The notes under the pieces were generated by a model. That model did not search any database, was not told the DNA's origin, and was given only the letters and a program-made list of their open reading frames with translations. Positions 4,286-12,264 of a stretch of DNA of 64,000 nucleotides are shown piece by piece (the first letter of the stretch is position 1; each line of letters starts with the position of its first letter). The stretch spans positions 62,001 to 126,000 of the forward strand of contig CAILZL010000018.1 of assembly GCA_903838705.1 (NCBI GenBank). Reading direction: 5' to 3'. A program made the position numbers and the translations under genes. This DNA comes from an uncultured Pseudomonadota bacterium (lineage in GTDB: Bacteria; Pseudomonadota; Gammaproteobacteria; Steroidobacterales; Steroidobacteraceae).

Positions 4286-4615
4286 TTATTGCGGTTTCAA
4301 TACCCACACCTTGCACCAGCCATTTACATTGACCAGCTTTCCGGGAAACAGATTGCAGCCACGGTCGTTGCCGGTTCCTGCTTGCAGCTGTACGCAACTG
4401 CTGCAGCTCTGGGTTGGCTTATAGGTTGAAAATTGTTTTACATCGACGGTTTTGGCGTTGGTGTGATATCCCAGTGCAGCAGCCGTAGGGTCAGATTCGG
4501 TGAGCTTGACCATCTCTGCAGCTTCGCTGCGCTCTGATTTCAGGATGGTTACACCCGCAGCACTCAGCAAGGCGCCTTTCAAAATCTGCCGGCGTTGAAT
4601 TTTGGAATCAGACAT
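4286..4615 (-). CDS. High-potential iron-sulfur protein (HiPIP) 1
   Basis: A small periplasmic electron carrier holding one [4Fe-4S] cluster at high redox potential. The 109-residue sequence has a twin-arginine export signal (RRQILKG, residues 8-14, then a hydrophobic stretch). The mature domain contains the HiPIP cluster cysteines Cys71, Cys74, Cys87 and Cys101 in the pattern C-x2-C-x12-C-x13-C, ending NGWCKVW. HiPIPs carry electrons from quinol:cytochrome c oxidoreductase to oxidases or photosynthetic reaction centres; in Acidithiobacillus the HiPIP Iro is linked to iron oxidation. It is followed by map (16 bp away) and preceded by a second HiPIP gene. Confidence 0.93.
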   Translation of the reverse strand: MSDSKIQRRQILKGALLSAAGVTILKSERSEAAEMVKLTESDPTAAALGYHTNAKTVDVKQFSTYKPTQSCSSCVQLQAGTGNDRGCNLFPGKLVNVNGWCKVWVLKPQ

Positions 4616-4693
4616 GTGGATTAACCTCAGTGAAACATCACACTTGATTAGAAAAACATTTAGAAAGTTATTTAGAGTCAGAATACGCAGTGA

Positions 4694-5014
4694 TCAGCGC
4701 AGCGGGTTCTTTACCCAGGCGCTACACCAGCCATTGGCATTGACCACATTTTTGGGGAAAAGTTTGCAGGGTCGATAGGGACTGTACTGCAACATGATCA
4801 ATGAGCAATTGGCGCAGTTCTGGCCGGGTTTGTAGGTGGGAAAGCGCTTGGCATCGACCTTGGAAGCATTTTCAACGTAGCCCACGGCTGCGGCAGCAGG
4901 ATCCGCAGGATTGAGCTTGCTGGCCATGGCCATGCCTGGTTCAGATAGCAAGGGAGCGCCCAGCGCACCCAGCAAGGCGCTTTTTACAAACTTACGTCGC
5001 TTAGGCTCCTGCAT
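4694..5014 (-). CDS. High-potential iron-sulfur protein (HiPIP) 2
   Basis: A 106-residue paralogue of the next gene downstream, probably a tandem duplication. It has a basic twin-arginine-like signal (KRRKFVKSALLG) without a perfect SRRxFLK motif. The cluster cysteines are Cys67, Cys70, Cys83 and Cys97 with the same spacing as HiPIP 1, and the shared ending is NGWCSAWV. Both copies share the block DPxAAAxGY and the YKPxQxC approach to the cluster, but the loop between Cys70 and Cys83 differs. Such divergence is expected if the two have different partners or redox potentials. Confidence 0.93.
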   Translation of the reverse strand: MQEPKRRKFVKSALLGALGAPLLSEPGMAMASKLNPADPAAAAVGYVENASKVDAKRFPTYKPGQNCANCSLIMLQYSPYRPCKLFPKNVVNANGWCSAWVKNPLR

Positions 5015-5095: not shown

Positions 5096-6373
5096 TCAGT
5101 CCAGCTGTCGACCTATCAGGCGCGACAAAAATGATTGCGGGCGGGGTGGCGGCGATACCTTGTTTGCTGCCTGAGTTACGGTAGGGATCACATGTTGGGC
5201 GGTAGCGGGTTTTGCGGGTACCGGAGTCGTGCGCTTTATGGTTGCAGCTGGCTGGTTCTGGCCGGCACCGGCTGGTCGTGCCGATGCATCGCGTGTATTG
5301 CCCAGATTGATGACGTTATCGGGTGGCGGTGCGGATTGAACCGGCTTGCTCTCTGCGAAGCGATCATGTTCAGAGCCACTGACCTGGCTGATGCTCGCAG
5401 AGGCAAAAAATGTTTTCAGATAACCCATCACCGCTTCGGCGGCCACCTGCTCACGGAAAAATCCCAGTCGCAGTGCGTGGCGTATGGTGCTGTTTTCCAT
5501 CAGCGCTACTGAGTAGAGGTTGTATGCCACAAATATATCCAGCTTGGGCATGGTATCGAGGTTGAATGGCTGTTCCGATGACGTGAGTTGCACTACAAAC
5601 CATTTCGGGCGACTGGGGTCTTCCGCTTCTGCGCGCGTCAGCGCACGGATAGTGAGCGTTGAATCCAGCACAGGTATAGCGTCATCAGGAATCTGCCGGG
5701 TCTTGTTTGCAGCTGCCCCGCCACTGCTATCGCGTGACATGGGTGAGCTGATAATGCTGGCAGACATGATGGGTGGCTGATTGGCGGGCGTAGCCGGTAG
5801 GGAATCCTTTTCCACAGTGGCTGTTGAAATATCCATTGATTCACGCGAAGGTGGAACAATGGCTGGTTCGTCAAGGAGACTGAGCATGGTTTCAGCTACA
5901 GGCGTTTTGATCGAGTGCTCGTCTGCAGATGTCTGTTTGACAGTCTCAATGGACTCGGTTGGCTGTATCGCATCACGGCTCAATTCCAGCGCAATGGGTG
6001 TAATGGGTGTATGCCTGGCTGTCTGCAGTGACGACATGGTTGACGGCACTGAATCATCAACATAGCGCTGGTCTTCACTGGTGACGCATCCTGCAAATGC
6101 AGCCGGGTACAGGTTCCTCACTGCACTGACTACCATTTCAGCATCAGCCTCACTGGTGAAAAACCCAAGCCGCAATCGATAGCGACGCCTGCCATCTTCC
6201 TGACGGGAAACCTGGTATAGCCGGTATTTTTCAAAACCCTTGAGCTGTTTTGGCAGCGCGGGCATGGGCGTCATGGACGCACACAGATTGATGACAAACA
6301 GTTCGTTGTCATTGTGACCGGCAATGGGCATTTCCCATTCTGGTACAAGCGGAGCTTTAGCAACTTCATTCAT
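5096..6373 (-). CDS. Protein with two SPOR-like domains, under a c-di-GMP riboswitch leader
   Basis: The product is 425 residues. Residues about 22-100 and 255-340 form two related modules with the SPOR layout (a FVINL- or FVVQL-type strand, then Y.LY.V, then YRLRLGFF or HALRLGFF, then a helix). They are separated by an acidic Ser/Thr/Pro-rich linker and followed by a disordered Pro/Ala tail. SPOR domains usually bind denuded septal peptidoglycan in the periplasm, but I see no signal peptide or membrane anchor, so the location is unclear. The start at 6373 has a GGGGAAG ribosome-binding site 5 bp upstream. The 5' leader contains a class-I c-di-GMP riboswitch, so expression should respond to the second messenger. 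No precise function can be assigned. Confidence 0.72.
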   Translation of the reverse strand: MNEVAKAPLVPEWEMPIAGHNDNELFVINLCASMTPMPALPKQLKGFEKYRLYQVSRQEDGRRRYRLRLGFFTSEADAEMVVSAVRNLYPAAFAGCVTSEDQRYVDDSVPSTMSSLQTARHTPITPIALELSRDAIQPTESIETVKQTSADEHSIKTPVAETMLSLLDEPAIVPPSRESMDISTATVEKDSLPATPANQPPIMSASIISSPMSRDSSGGAAANKTRQIPDDAIPVLDSTLTIRALTRAEAEDPSRPKWFVVQLTSSEQPFNLDTMPKLDIFVAYNLYSVALMENSTIRHALRLGFFREQVAAEAVMGYLKTFFASASISQVSGSEHDRFAESKPVQSAPPPDNVINLGNTRDASARPAGAGQNQPAATIKRTTPVPAKPATAQHVIPTVTQAANKVSPPPRPQSFLSRLIGRQLD

Positions 6374-6886
6374 GCTGTCTTCCCCAACACGAAAAGATTA
6401 GACCTCACAAAGCTCAGGTCATGCTTCGGCTGATAAACCACGGGAACGAAGTTGCAACGGATGTGATGACTTTGAATGTCCCGGACTTATGAACCGGATG
6501 TCATCTTCATCAGAACCTGGTGATCTGTAGAGTCAGGTTCTTTGTGGCAACCCCGCTGTCCTAGGCTAAGCCCTTAGACCGGAAGCTTTGCGTCCCCGCC
6601 TTTCGACGAGTTTGCGATTAACACTATGAAAATGATTCTTGTGTGTTGGGTAAGCCAAGTCAAGCGCTGATGTGGTCCTGGAAGCGCTATAACCACTGCA
6701 GATTTAACCTAAGTGGTCAGCAGATGAAAACGATGCTGAATCCCGGAGTCTGATCGGGTTTCATTCATGAACATAATGATTAACAACAACATAATACCCA
6801 GCGATTCTCAAGCTATGGTAATTTGTCATATCGAGTCCTTGCTGCCCTGATTTCATACAGGCAATGCATGGCGTGCAACCTTTGTC
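6374..6886. promoter_or_regulatory. Divergent 513-bp control region between SPOR gene and sheath gene
   Basis: The left half is the riboswitch leader of the minus-strand gene. To the right of the aptamer lie an AGCGCT pair (6663-6668 and 6683-6688) and the inverted repeat ACCACT/AGTGGT (6692-6717). These are possible operator or promoter elements for one or both divergent genes. From 6750 to 6886 the DNA is richer in A+T and should contain the sheath-gene promoter. No confident sigma-70 pair could be picked by eye. Confidence 0.4.
6545..6625 (-). ncRNA. Cyclic-di-GMP class I riboswitch (GEMM-I aptamer)
   Basis: Read on the minus strand, the segment shows the GEMM-I consensus blocks in order: CGCAAAC, a P2 hairpin closed by a GAAA tetraloop, GGGACGCAAAGC, TCCGG, then CTAA, a second hairpin, and AGCGGGGTTGCC. 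The GAAA loop and its CTAA-side receptor, and the G-rich 3' strand holding the ligand-binding C, are all in the expected places. The aptamer lies about 170 nt upstream of the SPOR gene on the same strand. A 7-bp hairpin (GAACCTG/CAGGTTC, 6513-6540) follows directly and may be part of the expression platform. No T-run follows, so control at translation or by another switch is as likely as termination. Confidence 0.93.
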
Positions 6887-8470
6887 ATGAATACTGGCGT
6901 GAATCAGAACAATTCAAATACTGCAACCATTACCGCTTTTGTTGGCCGCTGCCTGCGTGGTCCTGTAAATACACCTGTCACACTTGCCAGCTTTGCTGAT
7001 TATCAGCGAGTGTTCGGTGGTTTATGGCAGCCCAGCACGTTGTCCTACGCAGTCGAGCACTATTTTGAACATGGTGGTACATGTGCCGTTGTCGTTCGTG
7101 TAGTCAATGGCGCTTCTCCAGCCACCATTGAGCTGCCTTGCGGCAAACAGACACTGACACTGGAGGCGCTGGCGTCTGGCAGCCGTGAGTTTCTGCGTGC
7201 TTCCGTGGATTACGACAATCTTCCCGATCAGGATACGGATTACTTCAATCTGGTTCTGCAGCGGGTGCGCATGCACCAGTCCGAACATATTGAAAGTCAG
7301 GAATCTTACTATCGCGTTTCCATCAACCCGACCACCAGCCGGTTTGTTTCAACGGTACTGGTAGAGTCACATCTGGTGCGGGTACGTGGTGAGGTTCCTG
7401 CGCAACGCCCTGATCTTACGCCGGGCAAAACCGCGCAACACATGGTGGGCTATGTCAGCTCTCTGCCGAATGGCAATGATGGTGCCCCGCTGACTGATTA
7501 TGACCTGATCGGCTCTGCGACCGATGGTACCGGCATGTTTGCCTTGCAGTCATTGCCGCGTTTCGACTTTCTCTATATTCCCCCGCTGACCCGAGAAGAG
7601 GATGTGGGTTTAAGTACGTTGCTGGTTGCTACCCGGTTCTGTCGCGAGCGCCACGCTATGTTGATCATGGATCCGCCACTGGCCTGGCAACAGGTGTCCA
7701 GCGCCTTGTCTGGCATGCGTGCGCTGAACTTCAATTCAGATCAGGCTGTGATGTTTTTTCCGCGCGTGATAGCTCAGGATCGGCTGCGTGGTGCAGTGGC
7801 AGTGTTTGCCAATGGTGGCGCGGTTGCAGGCATGCTGTCACATGCAGATGAATTGCGTCCGGTATGGGATTCCCAGCAGCAGGAAGCCGAGCTGCTGCTG
7901 CGTCCCGGTTACCGTTTGCAAACTGAGCTGTCAGAGCTGGATCGATGGCGTCTTGCTGCGCAGGGCATTAATGGCCTGCAGACCATACGACGTGCGTTGC
8001 CGGTGTCGCTGGTCCGGCGCACGCTGGCAGGCAGTACTAATGCTGCTGCTGACTGGAGTTATCTGGGTTCACGCCGTTTTGCTCTCTATATCATGGGTAA
8101 TCTTCAGCGCAATACGCGCTGGGTGTTGCTGTCCAGTCCTGGTCGTGCCATGTGGGCGAGACTGGTGCGACAGATCAACGACTTTCTTCATGCTCAGGTG
8201 GCGATGGGTGCCTTTTCAAATGCGCACCAGGGACAGGAGTTTTTTGTCATCTGCGATGAACGCATCAATCCACAGACACCGGAGGCGACTGATGGGGTCA
8301 ATATTCTGGTGGGGTTTGCAGGTGCGCATGCAGGGCAGTACCACACGTTCATGATAAGTCATTCCCTGATGGGCAGCAGTACGCGCATGGTGGCCGTAAA
8401 TCGTTTTGAAACTCCCAGCAATTTTGAAGACGTGGAGCTCACCGGCATGCATCAGCGCTTGCGAGGCTGA
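6887..8470 (+). CDS. Orphan contractile-tail sheath protein
   Basis: A 527-residue protein of the phage/R-pyocin/extracellular contractile injection tail-sheath family. The N-terminus AFVGRCLRGPVNTPVTLASF, followed by RVFGGL and YFEHGG, is the classic sheath start. The middle holds the sheath core (SDQAVMFFPRV, GGAVAGMLSHAD, INGLQTI), and the C-terminal part (WSYLGSRRFALYI, NTRWVLLSSPG, WARLVRQINDFL) is the conserved interlocking domain. Sheath subunits normally polymerise around a tube and contract, but no tube, baseplate, spike, ATPase or terminator gene is seen within this window. The gene has host-like composition. It is therefore a domesticated or solitary sheath homologue, or encodes a sheath for parts located elsewhere. 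Confidence 0.88.
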   Translation: MNTGVNQNNSNTATITAFVGRCLRGPVNTPVTLASFADYQRVFGGLWQPSTLSYAVEHYFEHGGTCAVVVRVVNGASPATIELPCGKQTLTLEALASGSREFLRASVDYDNLPDQDTDYFNLVLQRVRMHQSEHIESQESYYRVSINPTTSRFVSTVLVESHLVRVRGEVPAQRPDLTPGKTAQHMVGYVSSLPNGNDGAPLTDYDLIGSATDGTGMFALQSLPRFDFLYIPPLTREEDVGLSTLLVATRFCRERHAMLIMDPPLAWQQVSSALSGMRALNFNSDQAVMFFPRVIAQDRLRGAVAVFANGGAVAGMLSHADELRPVWDSQQQEAELLLRPGYRLQTELSELDRWRLAAQGINGLQTIRRALPVSLVRRTLAGSTNAAADWSYLGSRRFALYIMGNLQRNTRWVLLSSPGRAMWARLVRQINDFLHAQVAMGAFSNAHQGQEFFVICDERINPQTPEATDGVNILVGFAGAHAGQYHTFMISHSLMGSSTRMVAVNRFETPSNFEDVELTGMHQRLRG

Positions 8471-8485
8471 TAGGCAGTCAGTTAT

Positions 8486-8914
8486 ATGTCAGTGCAGTAT
8501 CTGTTCGTCATTATCTTTGCAGTGGTCGTCGTTATTTGGTCGGTGCCCATAGAGCGGGCTCGCGCAGTGGCGCTGCGAATGTATTGGCTTCGTAGTTGCA
8601 GTGGGCGCGCTTGGAAGCGCGAATTCCCCAGCGTACCGAAAAGTGATGTTCGATCTTTCCTGCAGCTGTTTGTTCAAGCATTCGCGTTTCCGCGGAATCG
8701 CGCATTGCAGTTTCTCCCGTCTGACCGTGTGTTCGACGTCTACCAAGCGATCTATCCGAGCAAATATTTGCCGGATGCACTTGAGCTGGAAACGCTAGCT
8801 AAAGAACTCGATCGGATGTACCGGATATCTCTCGAGGAGCTTTGGAGTGAAGAGCTCACCCTTGGTCAGCTGTTCGATGTTGCCGTGTGCCAGCCGCTTT
8901 ACAAGCAGTTGTAG
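8486..8914 (+). CDS. Small membrane-anchored protein with acyl-carrier-like C-terminus
   Basis: 142 residues: one N-terminal membrane helix (residues about 4-20, FVIIFAVVVVIWSV), a basic stretch, then a soluble helical domain. The end (ISLEELWSEELTLGQLFDV) resembles the C-terminal helix pattern of DUF1493/acyl-carrier-like proteins, but no DSL phosphopantetheine site is visible, so a carrier role is not supported. It starts 15 bp after the sheath gene and is probably co-transcribed with it, which may make it a partner of the sheath. Function unknown. Confidence 0.6.
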   Translation: MSVQYLFVIIFAVVVVIWSVPIERARAVALRMYWLRSCSGRAWKREFPSVPKSDVRSFLQLFVQAFAFPRNRALQFLPSDRVFDVYQAIYPSKYLPDALELETLAKELDRMYRISLEELWSEELTLGQLFDVAVCQPLYKQL

Positions 8915-9043: not shown

Positions 9044-9544
9044 ATGAACAATGCTGTGGTGATCTTTTCGCATGGCAAGGACAGCGAGCCCTGGGGCAGC
9101 AAGATCACCGCCATGGCTGAGGTTGCGCGCAGCATGGGATATCAAGTTGAGTCAGTTGACTATCGGGGCATGGATGATCCCCTTGCGCGAGTCCGGCGCC
9201 TGCTCGAGTTTGCTCACACCACACCTGCACCCATCCTGGTGGGTTCAAGTCTCGGTGGCCATGTTGCAACGGCTGCTTCAGTCAAGTTGCAGGCACGGGG
9301 TCTGTTCCTGCTTGCACCAGCGTTTTACATGCCCGGTTATGAGCAGTACACGCCACCCCCAGCAGATTGTCCTCTGAGTATTGTGCACGGCTGGCGTGAT
9401 GAAATTGTGCCGGTTGAAAACAGCATCCGCTATGCGGGTGAATATCACGGCACATTACAGGTCATCGATTCTGATCATCGCATGTTGCAGAACCTGCCCC
9501 AGATTCTGGGGTACTTTGCGTTGTTCCTGCGGGGATTGAAATGA
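9044..9544 (+). CDS. Small alpha/beta hydrolase (YqiA/RBBP9-like)
   Basis: A 166-residue minimal alpha/beta hydrolase fold. The nucleophile elbow is GSSLGG (Ser about 69), the acid loop is HGWRDEIVP, and the catalytic His lies in DSDHRM. There is no signal peptide, so it is cytosolic. Enzymes of this size are esterases or serine hydrolases of uncertain substrate. It overlaps the following lipoprotein gene by 4 bases (ATGA), so the two are translated together. Confidence 0.82.
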   Translation: MNNAVVIFSHGKDSEPWGSKITAMAEVARSMGYQVESVDYRGMDDPLARVRRLLEFAHTTPAPILVGSSLGGHVATAASVKLQARGLFLLAPAFYMPGYEQYTPPPADCPLSIVHGWRDEIVPVENSIRYAGEYHGTLQVIDSDHRMLQNLPQILGYFALFLRGLK

Positions 9545-9816: not shown

Positions 9817-12264
9817 ATGTCAGTTCTGACTTCATTCTGGGTGCGCTGCTGGGTCAGACCAAGGGTTCTCCCTGAGCAGATCATTGACAAGCTGGGTGTC
9901 AGTAATCGTGATCTGTGCTTCATCCTGCCGACAGATGCAGCAATGGATCATCATGCGCTGCGCGTGTTACTTCAGCAGCCACAGTGGCAGGCCCTTTTCA
10001 GCCAGCGCCAGTTGATTCTTCCTGATGGTCGGGCGCTCAGCTTGCAGCGCTGGGCGGGAGCGGCGGGAAGTCGTCTTGATTCGCGCTCACCTGATGCACT
10101 GCGACAGCTGGTGGAGTCAGTGCTTGATTCAATAAATGCACACGACCCGCAGCATGATATTGATCTGGTGCCGGTCAATATTTTCTGGGGTCGGGCTCCC
10201 GACAGAAAAGCATCAGGATGGAGATTACTGCTGTCAGGCACATGGGCAGAGTCGTGGTCCGGCAGCACGGCTCTGCATCGGCTGCTTGCATCCATGATCA
10301 ATGGACGGAATCTGATGGTGCAGTTTGGTGAACCGATGTCGGTGCGCAATCTGATAGCGGATACGCCTGATGGTGCACGGGCGACACGTCGTGTTGCCCG
10401 GGCCTGCCGGAACAGTTTTTATCGACAGCGAACTGCATTAATTGGCCCTGAAATTGCCGGCAAACATCTGATCGAGTCACAGGTGTTACGTGCTCATGGC
10501 GTTCGACAGGCCATGCGAAACGATATGCGCACCAAAGGACTGACACGCAAGCAGGCAGTGCAGGCTGCACAAAAATGCCTGAATGAAATTGCTGCGGACT
10601 ATTCACACGTTACCGTCAGTCTGCTGGCGCGGCTGTTCAGGCGCATATGGAATCGTCTGTATGACGGAGTGGAGCTGCATCATCTGGATCAGTTACAGGC
10701 AGTGATGAATGACAATGAGATCATCTTTGTTCCCTGTCATCGAAGTCATCTTGATTATCTGCTGCTTTCCTATGTGATCTATGACAATGGCTACGTAGTG
10801 CCCCATGTGGCAGCCGGCGTGAATCTCAATCTGCCGGTGCTGGGCAGGATATTGCGCAAGGGCGGTGCATTTTTCATCCGGCGCAGTTTTGCAGGGAATG
10901 CGCTTTATACCGCCGTATTTACCCGCTATCTGGGTTTGATGATGGCGCGCGGACATGCGCTGGAGTATTTCATTGAAGGTGGTCGCAGCCGTACTGGTCG
11001 GTTATTGCAGCCTAAGACCGGCGCATTGACCATGACAGTGAGGAGTTACCTTCGTGATCCGCAGCGTCCGGTGGTGTTCGTGCCGGTCTATTTTGGCTAT
11101 GAGCGGGTGGCGGAGGGCAGTGCCTATCTCAATGAGCTGTCCGGCAAACCGAAGGAAAAAGAGTCCGTGATGGGTTTGCTCAGAGCGTTGCCAGCTTTGC
11201 GTCAGCAGTTCGGCAAGGTGCATGTCAGTATCGGAGCACCCATTCAGCTTGATGATCTGCTCAAGCAATACACACCTGACTGGCGGAGCAAGGCTGTAGA
11301 AGACAGACCTGGCTGGCTGGGCCCGATGGTGGATGATCTGGCGCAGCGCATCATGCGCAATATCAACGATGCTGCATATGTAACACCCATCAATCTGCTG
11401 GCGCTGGTGCTGCTGGCAACACCTAAACAGGCCATGCTCGAAGCCGATCTGATACGTCAGCTGACTTTGTACATATCAATGTTGCGTAGCATGCCGTACT
11501 CGCCGCTGGTTGGGATCACGCCGATGAAAGCAGAGGAAGTTATTGCCTATGCTGAACGTATGCGCTGGTTGCGGCGTACCAGTCATGAGCTGGGCGATGT
11601 GCTGGGCATGACCGAAATCAATGCCACTCAGATCACGTACTTCCGCAATAACATCCTGCATCTGATGGTATTGCCATCAGCCATCGCCAGCTGTTTCCAG
11701 AACAATCGACAGGTGCGAACCGAAGACATCCAGCGTCTGGCCTGGCGTATATATCCTTATCTAAGTGATGAGCTGTTCCTGCGCTGGGACGAAGTGGCTT
11801 TGCCCGGTGTGGTCGATGGCATGGTCAGGAATATGGCAACACATGGGTTGCTGGTCTCTCATGATGATGGCAACAGCTGGGTCAGACCGGCAGCGGGCAG
11901 TGCTGAAGCGGTACAGCTGTCGTTGCTGGGCCAGCTCAGCATGCAGATCATTGAACGTTACTATCTGACAGTGGCGCTGTTGCTCAAGGCGGGCAGTGGC
12001 CGGATCAGTCAGGAAGCGCTGGTTCGTCAGTGCCATCTGATGGCACAGCGCATGTCATTAATTTATGAACTCAATTCACCCGAATTTTTCGACCAGAGCC
12101 TGTTCAAGAATTTTCTTGATCTGCTGCGCAGCCGCAGTGTGCTGGGGGTCAATTCGGAGGGGCGGCTTACTTATACCGATCTGCTGATTGCAGTTGCCGA
12201 TGATGCCGAGCTGGTGCTTCACGAACAGATCCGTAACAGCATTCTGCAAGTGACACATCGCTGA
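9817..12264 (+). CDS. plsB: Glycerol-3-phosphate 1-O-acyltransferase PlsB
   Basis: Catalyses the first step of phospholipid synthesis at the inner membrane, acylating glycerol-3-phosphate from acyl-CoA or acyl-ACP. The 815-residue length matches E. coli PlsB. The acyltransferase blocks are all present: block I HRSHLDYLLL (catalytic His and Asp, near residue 308), block II GGAFFIRRSF, block III FIEGGRSRTGRL and block IV VFVPVYFGYE. Long N- and C-terminal helical regions characteristic of PlsB flank the catalytic part. The gene converges on aroE with a gap of only 19 bp. Confidence 0.96.
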   Translation: MSVLTSFWVRCWVRPRVLPEQIIDKLGVSNRDLCFILPTDAAMDHHALRVLLQQPQWQALFSQRQLILPDGRALSLQRWAGAAGSRLDSRSPDALRQLVESVLDSINAHDPQHDIDLVPVNIFWGRAPDRKASGWRLLLSGTWAESWSGSTALHRLLASMINGRNLMVQFGEPMSVRNLIADTPDGARATRRVARACRNSFYRQRTALIGPEIAGKHLIESQVLRAHGVRQAMRNDMRTKGLTRKQAVQAAQKCLNEIAADYSHVTVSLLARLFRRIWNRLYDGVELHHLDQLQAVMNDNEIIFVPCHRSHLDYLLLSYVIYDNGYVVPHVAAGVNLNLPVLGRILRKGGAFFIRRSFAGNALYTAVFTRYLGLMMARGHALEYFIEGGRSRTGRLLQPKTGALTMTVRSYLRDPQRPVVFVPVYFGYERVAEGSAYLNELSGKPKEKESVMGLLRALPALRQQFGKVHVSIGAPIQLDDLLKQYTPDWRSKAVEDRPGWLGPMVDDLAQRIMRNINDAAYVTPINLLALVLLATPKQAMLEADLIRQLTLYISMLRSMPYSPLVGITPMKAEEVIAYAERMRWLRRTSHELGDVLGMTEINATQITYFRNNILHLMVLPSAIASCFQNNRQVRTEDIQRLAWRIYPYLSDELFLRWDEVALPGVVDGMVRNMATHGLLVSHDDGNSWVRPAAGSAEAVQLSLLGQLSMQIIERYYLTVALLLKAGSGRISQEALVRQCHLMAQRMSLIYELNSPEFFDQSLFKNFLDLLRSRSVLGVNSEGRLTYTDLLIAVADDAELVLHEQIRNSILQVTHR

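Follow-up and report, generated by a model that had tools for sequence, protein, structure and literature searches.

A lone contractile-injection-type sheath protein of the Steroidobacterales, with diverged assembly parts and a preserved middle domain, suggests a new job for a machine part

The window analyzed here is a 64,000-nucleotide stretch of DNA from an uncultured bacterium of the Steroidobacteraceae (order Steroidobacterales, class Gammaproteobacteria), in which we confirmed an open reading frame of 527 amino acids at positions 6887-8470 of the forward strand. Its product is a sheath protein, and its surroundings are a divergent SPOR gene with a riboswitch on one side and a short open reading frame followed by two recurring neighbor genes on the other. 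The features are given below in window coordinates; "lone sheaths" are the window protein and its relatives of the same kind within the order, and "sisters" are the eCIS-near sheaths with which they were compared.

5096-6373, reverse strand: gene for a SPOR-domain protein of 425 amino acids (Pfam), with the riboswitch upstream; adjoins the sheath gene only within the genus, as far as seen
6543-6626, reverse strand: c-di-GMP-I riboswitch (77.4 bits), belonging to the SPOR gene rather than to the sheath gene
6887-8470, forward strand: lone contractile-injection-type sheath protein, 527 amino acids, by sequence and fold matches
6887-6922, forward strand: sheath residues 1-12, the expected site of a canonical N-arm (PG[VI]YVEE type), which is absent here and was not seen in the three frames immediately upstream
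7103-7471, forward strand: middle domain of the sheath, residues 73-195; 46% identity among lone sheaths versus 35% among sisters
7259-7264, forward strand: Q125-R126, conserved at 0.98 and 1.00 in lone sheaths and unconserved in sisters
7298-7300, forward strand: Q138, conserved at 1.00 in lone sheaths and unconserved in sisters
7982-8371, forward strand: C-terminal sheath-wall/handshake domain, residues 366-495, without the PAEFV[VI] motif; 33% identity among lone sheaths versus 81% among sisters
8366-8467, forward strand: extra C-terminal tail, residues 494-527, modeled with low confidence (pLDDT < 50 at residues 504-527)
8486-8914, forward strand: open reading frame of 142 amino acids with a hydrophobic N terminus, starting 15 bases past the sheath stop; no relatives found
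9044-9544, forward strand: alpha/beta hydrolase gene (Abhydrolase_6, Pfam), a recurring downstream neighbor
9817-12264, forward strand: plsB-type glycerol-3-phosphate acyltransferase gene (GPAT_C, Pfam), a recurring downstream neighbor

The sheath homologue that had been read from the DNA alone proved real. The 527-residue protein matched PHROG_23, "tail sheath," over residues 2-464 (E 3.2e-23) and the solved CIS sheath 8bky_A over residues 14-80 and 205-491 (E 5.4e-22), and its sequence also matched the solved CIS sheaths 8bl4 and 9ezm. An AlphaFold2 model (mean pLDDT 75.8, pTM 0.76) had the haloarchaeal CIS sheath 9ezm_A as its top PDB match (Foldseek E 7.6e-27); because the 21 sequences of its input alignment were mostly canonical sheaths, the model leans toward the canonical fold. 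Pfam gave no match to the window sheath even at E 1, PF04984 and PF17482 included, and NCBIfam gave none either; among 40 members of the alignment (one of them L056, described below), Pfam at E 0.01 recognized PF04984 in 11 and PF17482 in 16. We conclude that the window protein belongs to the contractile sheath superfamily by fold and by significant sequence relation. The accompanying claim of a full-length sheath with both sheath domains stood as far as the fold is concerned and did not stand for the N-terminal arm, which is missing, or for Pfam, which found no match.

Two known sheaths resemble the window protein in both sequence and fold, namely Cis2 of Streptomyces coelicolor (8bky and 8bl4) and the CIS sheath of Halogeometricum borinquense (9ezm), but, unlike the window sheath, both sit in contractile particles with a tube and a baseplate. 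The T6SS sheath, a two-protein sheath (TssB/TssC), is one that we take to belong to the same broad superfamily; TssB/TssC gave no match among those listed in the sequence searches with the window sheath. The plasmid collection held 58 records with sheath matches, all below 60% identity, the matches listed being at 25-33%.

The rest of the machine was sought across 148 genomes of the order. We regard the tube alignment, which was built from eCIS clusters of the same order, as sensitive because it detected a tube at 29 of 38 loci of the viral collection with diverse sheaths. Tube matches were obtained in 8 of the 148 genomes, matches to a gp25-type wedge alignment in six, and matches to a Pvc16 alignment in five. 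The window's genome matched none of these three alignments, all of which matched other genomes of the set, and it held neither PF04984 nor Baseplate_J, each of which was found in 3 of 14 control genomes. For two more searches there was no positive control: PF06841 was absent from the window's genome and from the control genomes as well, and alignment A6 (T4_baseplate-like) matched 0 of the 148. The genes whose linkage marks an eCIS (tube, wedge, baseplate, and cap) were not found in the window's genome, and the sheath is an orphan there, as predicted from the window. The same searches bear on the suggestion that the sheath contributes to a contractile system whose other parts are encoded elsewhere in the genome. 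Sheath and tube matches do occur together in six genomes of the order, but in the four of these that were examined (G021, G033, G084, and G095) the tube adjoins a separate, canonical sheath of its own, and since searches of the window's genome for a tube, a wedge, a cap, and Baseplate_J all came back empty, we consider such a system extremely unlikely. We also note that, in one genome of the order that has no sheath match, a tube-like and a Pvc16-like match adjoin (G034:C8:2940-3880).

The c-di-GMP riboswitch that the original prediction had placed beside the sheath is likewise real and lies upstream of the SPOR gene. Of 59 genomes searched for the SPOR protein, 20 gave a match, the window's own among them; the SPOR gene adjoins the sheath in G000 (the window's genome), G001, and G002, all of the window's genus, and lies away from it in G019, G006, and G030, which represent other genera. 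A c-di-GMP-I-type aptamer was found upstream of the SPOR gene in all four other genomes scanned (G001, G002, G006, and G019, the last with the variant c-di-GMP-I-GGC), and because it is there with or without a nearby sheath, the riboswitch is assigned to the SPOR gene. G003 has no SPOR match, and its sheath site carries neither the short transmembrane reading frame nor an aptamer. This reading frame of 142 amino acids, proposed as the sheath's membrane partner, was found in its own genome only (one of 59 searched) and had no match in the plasmid collection, and we judged it to lie outside the sheath story. What speaks for a single c-di-GMP-controlled system of SPOR protein, sheath, and membrane protein is that the three genes are adjacent in the window and that the SPOR gene adjoins the sheath in G001 and G002 too; set against the confinement of the transmembrane gene to one genome, the different location of the SPOR gene and its riboswitch in other genera, and the sheath site of G003, this leaves such a system with very little probability. 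The synteny comparison indicates that the trio is a local arrangement and not a system.

As an observation in its own right, the pairing of the SPOR gene with a c-di-GMP-I-type riboswitch recurs across several genera and in different places (window 5096-6626 on the reverse strand; L093, L094, L095, and L097). In the window, at 4286-5014 on the reverse strand, lie two tandem genes for HiPIP (high-potential iron-sulphur protein), one of which has a Tat signal match below the Pfam cut-off.

Relatives of the sheath were found by protein search (E 1e-10 or better) in 116 of the 148 genomes of the order, own included, many of the searched genomes being draft assemblies; 6 of the 8 genomes with a tube match belong to these 116. 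The nearest relative of the window sheath, in G003, is 72-73% identical to it, and most relatives have uninterrupted frames. No sheath match was obtained in 32 of the 148 genomes, including 23 of the 107 good ones, and in G001, which is of the same genus as the window, the sheath is present only as interrupted matches with internal stops (L072, which is G001:C1); from these two results it follows that the gene can be lost. The interrupted sheath of L072 adjoins a SPOR gene carrying its riboswitch. Overall, the sheath is widespread in the order, its inheritance looks vertical, and many members of the order appear to have kept it alone, without the rest of the injection machine.

The chromosomal neighborhood was compared at 35 loci representing 26 genus groups. 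An L,D-transpeptidase gene (named by Pfam in one member) lies within five genes of the lone sheath in 15 of the 26 groups, a gene that we presume from its sequence to be oxoprolinase-like recurs in 12, an alpha/beta hydrolase gene in 8, and PlsB in 7, and the recurring neighborhood extends over several families. No phage or tail gene was recognized among the recurring neighbors at these 35 loci, for a subset of which Pfam was run, several neighbors being without a match. The L,D-transpeptidase was considered as an operon partner and rejected, since both the gaps and the immediate neighbor differ among families; because the immediate neighbors vary, there is no nameable operon partner.

Selection was measured in 13 pairs of lone sheaths, with L013 used in two of them; the pair of the window and G003 was synonymously saturated and gave no ratio. 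In the other 12 pairs, whole-gene dN/dS was 0.07-0.27, and one pair of eCIS sheaths gave 0.10. Purifying selection acts on the lone sheaths of the measured pairs. These ratios weigh on the view that the sheath is a slowly decaying, functionless eCIS remnant. The interrupted matches in one genome of the same genus, the 32 genomes without a match, and the loss of the N-arm would fit gradual decay, but the low dN/dS in 12 pairs, the uninterrupted frames of most relatives, and residues that are invariant in lone sheaths only (see below) argue against it, and we hold it to be improbable. Within the close lone-sheath pairs, the C-domain alone gave a dN/dS of 0.10-0.30, higher than that of the middle domain in 7 of the 12 pairs and lower in 5, whereas in the eCIS pair it was the most constrained part of the protein (0.048 versus 0.117 for the middle domain).

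Relatives outside the order were sought with profile A3 in 321 genomes drawn from the class. Seven genomes gave strong matches: six scored 394-461 bits, and in G215 the match was split into pieces, the best at 280. A group of 24 genomes followed at no more than 169 bits. The one-by-one tube check covered the seven strong genomes, and in all of them a tube match lay within 400 bases of the sheath match. By Pfam, L111 holds a sheath, a Phage_T4_gp19 tube, T4_baseplate, Pvc16_N, AAA, and eCIS_core, and similar genes stand in the same order in L112, L115, L116, and L117 within the fetched stretches. From this gene content we term the clusters L111-L117 eCIS-type and do not call them complete, spike and wedge being outside the check. 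In a tree of 63 rows, comprising 37 of the 70 lone sheaths, 15 eCIS-near sheaths, 10 canonical sheaths, and L056, the 37 lone sheaths came out as a single clade (SH-aLRT 99) next to the eCIS sheaths, with families f1, f4, f5, f7, f11, and f15 each clustering together. The tree indicates that the lone sheaths share common descent with eCIS sheaths. The eCIS-type sheaths of L111-L117 are their nearest relatives by both profile score and tree, yet these are accompanied by a tube and other genes of the machine, and they have both arms in canonical form and a C-domain of high conservation, all of which most lone sheaths lack. L056 (L056:9688-11205, in G109 of the same order) resembles the window sheath in that no tail gene was recognized around it by eye, and its genome gave no tube match. 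Unlike the lone-sheath clade, it retains the N-arm and the C-arm in their canonical form and is placed with the eCIS sheaths in the tree; it is probably a separate orphan and a second kind of lone sheath.

To compare conservation domain by domain, we set 70 lone sheaths (69 loci, L056 excluded, plus the window; 45 of the 70 from the window's family) against the 15 eCIS-near sheaths, a small group of which 8 come from contigs filed as viral. The lone-sheath alignment kept 70 of 81 matches, those dropped being matches with fewer than 430 aligned query residues, the canonical L052-L055, and copies of the window; loci L032-L043 had been excluded beforehand from the sheath collection as duplicates of genes in L002-L029. 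At the N-terminal end (window residues 1-12), mean pairwise identity was 0.87 in the sisters and 0.26 in the lone sheaths, start codons being uncertain in several sheath relatives. The corresponding values were 0.64 and 0.56 for the N-domain, 0.56 and 0.42 for the core, and 0.81 and 0.33 for the C-domain; for the middle domain they were 0.35 in the sisters and 0.46 in the lone sheaths. Expressed as weighted bits per column, the C-domain goes from 3.83 in the sisters to 1.96 in the lone sheaths, and the middle domain is nearly equal (2.41 and 2.49, respectively). Against a broader canonical set of 32 rows (6 of 39 were dropped for scoring below 160 bits), the middle domain had 1.71 bits in canonical and 2.62 in lone sheaths and the C-domain 2.99 and 2.02, respectively; the two comparisons overlap, 7 of the 32 canonical rows being also among the 15 sisters. 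Across these alignments, conservation is inverted, in that the sisters are most conserved at the N-terminal end and in the C-terminal wall domain, exactly where the lone sheaths are least conserved. Because the C-domain is still constrained within close pairs, it is rebuilt rather than free, even though its old form is no longer held across the clade.

The arm motifs follow the same division. For the N-arm with its PG[VI]xVxE-type strand, a strict motif was present in 15 of 15 sisters and 5 of 70 lone sheaths, and the C-arm motif PAEFV[VI] in 15 of 15 and 0 of 70; a loose arm-like motif is still found in 46 of the 70. There is no N-arm in G000, G001, or G003, where the upstream frames were scanned as well (in G001, the sheath frame only). 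In the AlphaFold2 model of the window sheath, a strand is still predicted at residues 485-493. Thirteen residues are conserved in the lone sheaths but not in the sisters. The middle domain holds six of them, including Q125, R126, and Q138 (0.98-1.00), the core holds four, and the C-domain holds three.

Two readings in which the protein still engages other sheath subunits can be weighed on these results. First, it may polymerize by way of contacts that are new or have become weaker, giving a filament or ring inside the cell that lacks a tube and serves as a structural element. The intact fold of the model, the loose motif retained in 46 of 70 relatives, and a C-domain that is under purifying selection and has three lone-sheath-specific residues are all consistent with this, but G000, G001, and G003 have no N-arm, the C-arm motif is absent throughout, and of all folded parts the handshake domain shows the lowest conservation across the clade, so that we rate polymerization as unlikely, though less so than the other alternatives. 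A tube-less filament of the canonical kind is not supported, as the arm motifs are lost in most of the clade and the genus has no N-arm as far as seen. Second, the protein may act as a decoy or poison, inserting itself into sheaths that invading phages or rival particles are assembling and thereby stopping their growth. An arm-less subunit could conceivably cap a sheath, but the polymer interface that such a decoy requires is without its conserved motifs, and no defense genes were recognized among the neighbors looked at, which were inspected without a defense-library search; we give this reading little credence.

The reading that we prefer, and consider somewhat likely to be correct, is that the window sheath descends from an eCIS sheath, has been domesticated and is non-contractile, and serves through its middle domain as a scaffold or adaptor. 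A single ancestor in the order would have held the sheath without its machine. The lone sheath would no longer build a contractile sheath and would be a soluble cytoplasmic protein, either a monomer or a small oligomer, whose middle domain around Q125, R126, and Q138 would bind a host-encoded partner and act as a scaffold or adaptor. Known sheath structures give these domains their meaning. In the available text of PMC10329688, the subunits of a phage sheath in the extended state are joined solely by the N-arm, the C-arm, and a C-terminal beta-turn; for AlgoCIS, the available text of PMC8894135 has domains I and II forming the wall through a "handshake" and domains III and IV extending outward; and in Streptomyces a longer N-terminal sheath linker blocks contraction, according to the available text of PMC10066040. 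From the order of domains, we infer that the middle domain here corresponds to the outward domains of AlgoCIS. As judged from the alignments, the stitching parts (N-arm, C-arm, and handshake) have lost the clade-wide conservation that the eCIS sisters hold, and the middle domain has not. Changed arms and handshake together with a held middle domain are what exaptation into a non-contractile binding protein would predict, and diverged assembly parts beside a preserved other part suggest, at the level of sequence, a new job for the lone sheath. That a sheath subunit was exapted once, early in the order, becoming non-contractile and gaining a new binding function through a former surface domain, is put forward tentatively, as falling just short of an even chance. 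Several findings count against exaptation: the information in the middle domain is barely above that of the sisters (2.49 versus 2.41 bits), the lone-specific residues are not confined to the middle domain (7 of 13 lie in the core and C-domain), the C-domain is constrained in close pairs, the loose arm-like motif persists in 46 of 70, and the gene can be lost. A further caution is that some ordinary prophage sheath proteins are reported in the available text of PMC9230969 to be non-polymerizing too.

We found no description of a lone, domesticated CIS sheath in the literature searched, which is weak evidence of absence, as subscription papers and preprints were mostly outside it. Known sheaths are components of machines, and surveys detect them through linked sets of genes. 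According to its available text, one survey (PMC8213781) set a minimum of four linked genes carrying three or more different Pfam annotations and later moved to ten core genes, a requirement under which it would overlook a lone sheath. If the single, early exaptation proposed above is true, it would give sheath proteins a third fate, in addition to service in working particles and decay within prophages. An order-wide lone sheath with rebuilt assembly surfaces and a held middle domain would clearly illustrate how part of a machine can be put to cellular use, and the middle domain would be a definite place to seek its partner.

Some minor observations concern the eCIS-type clusters themselves. 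Three contigs filed as viral in IMG/VR (L146, L147, and L148) each hold two tandem eCIS-type sheath genes, with a tube match also in L146 and L148, and these contigs may be pieces of eCIS rather than phages. A gene for a papain-family cysteine peptidase follows the eCIS AAA ATPase gene in L111 (L111:16538-17392, by Pfam) and in L112 (L112:16116-17033, by a similar sequence start).
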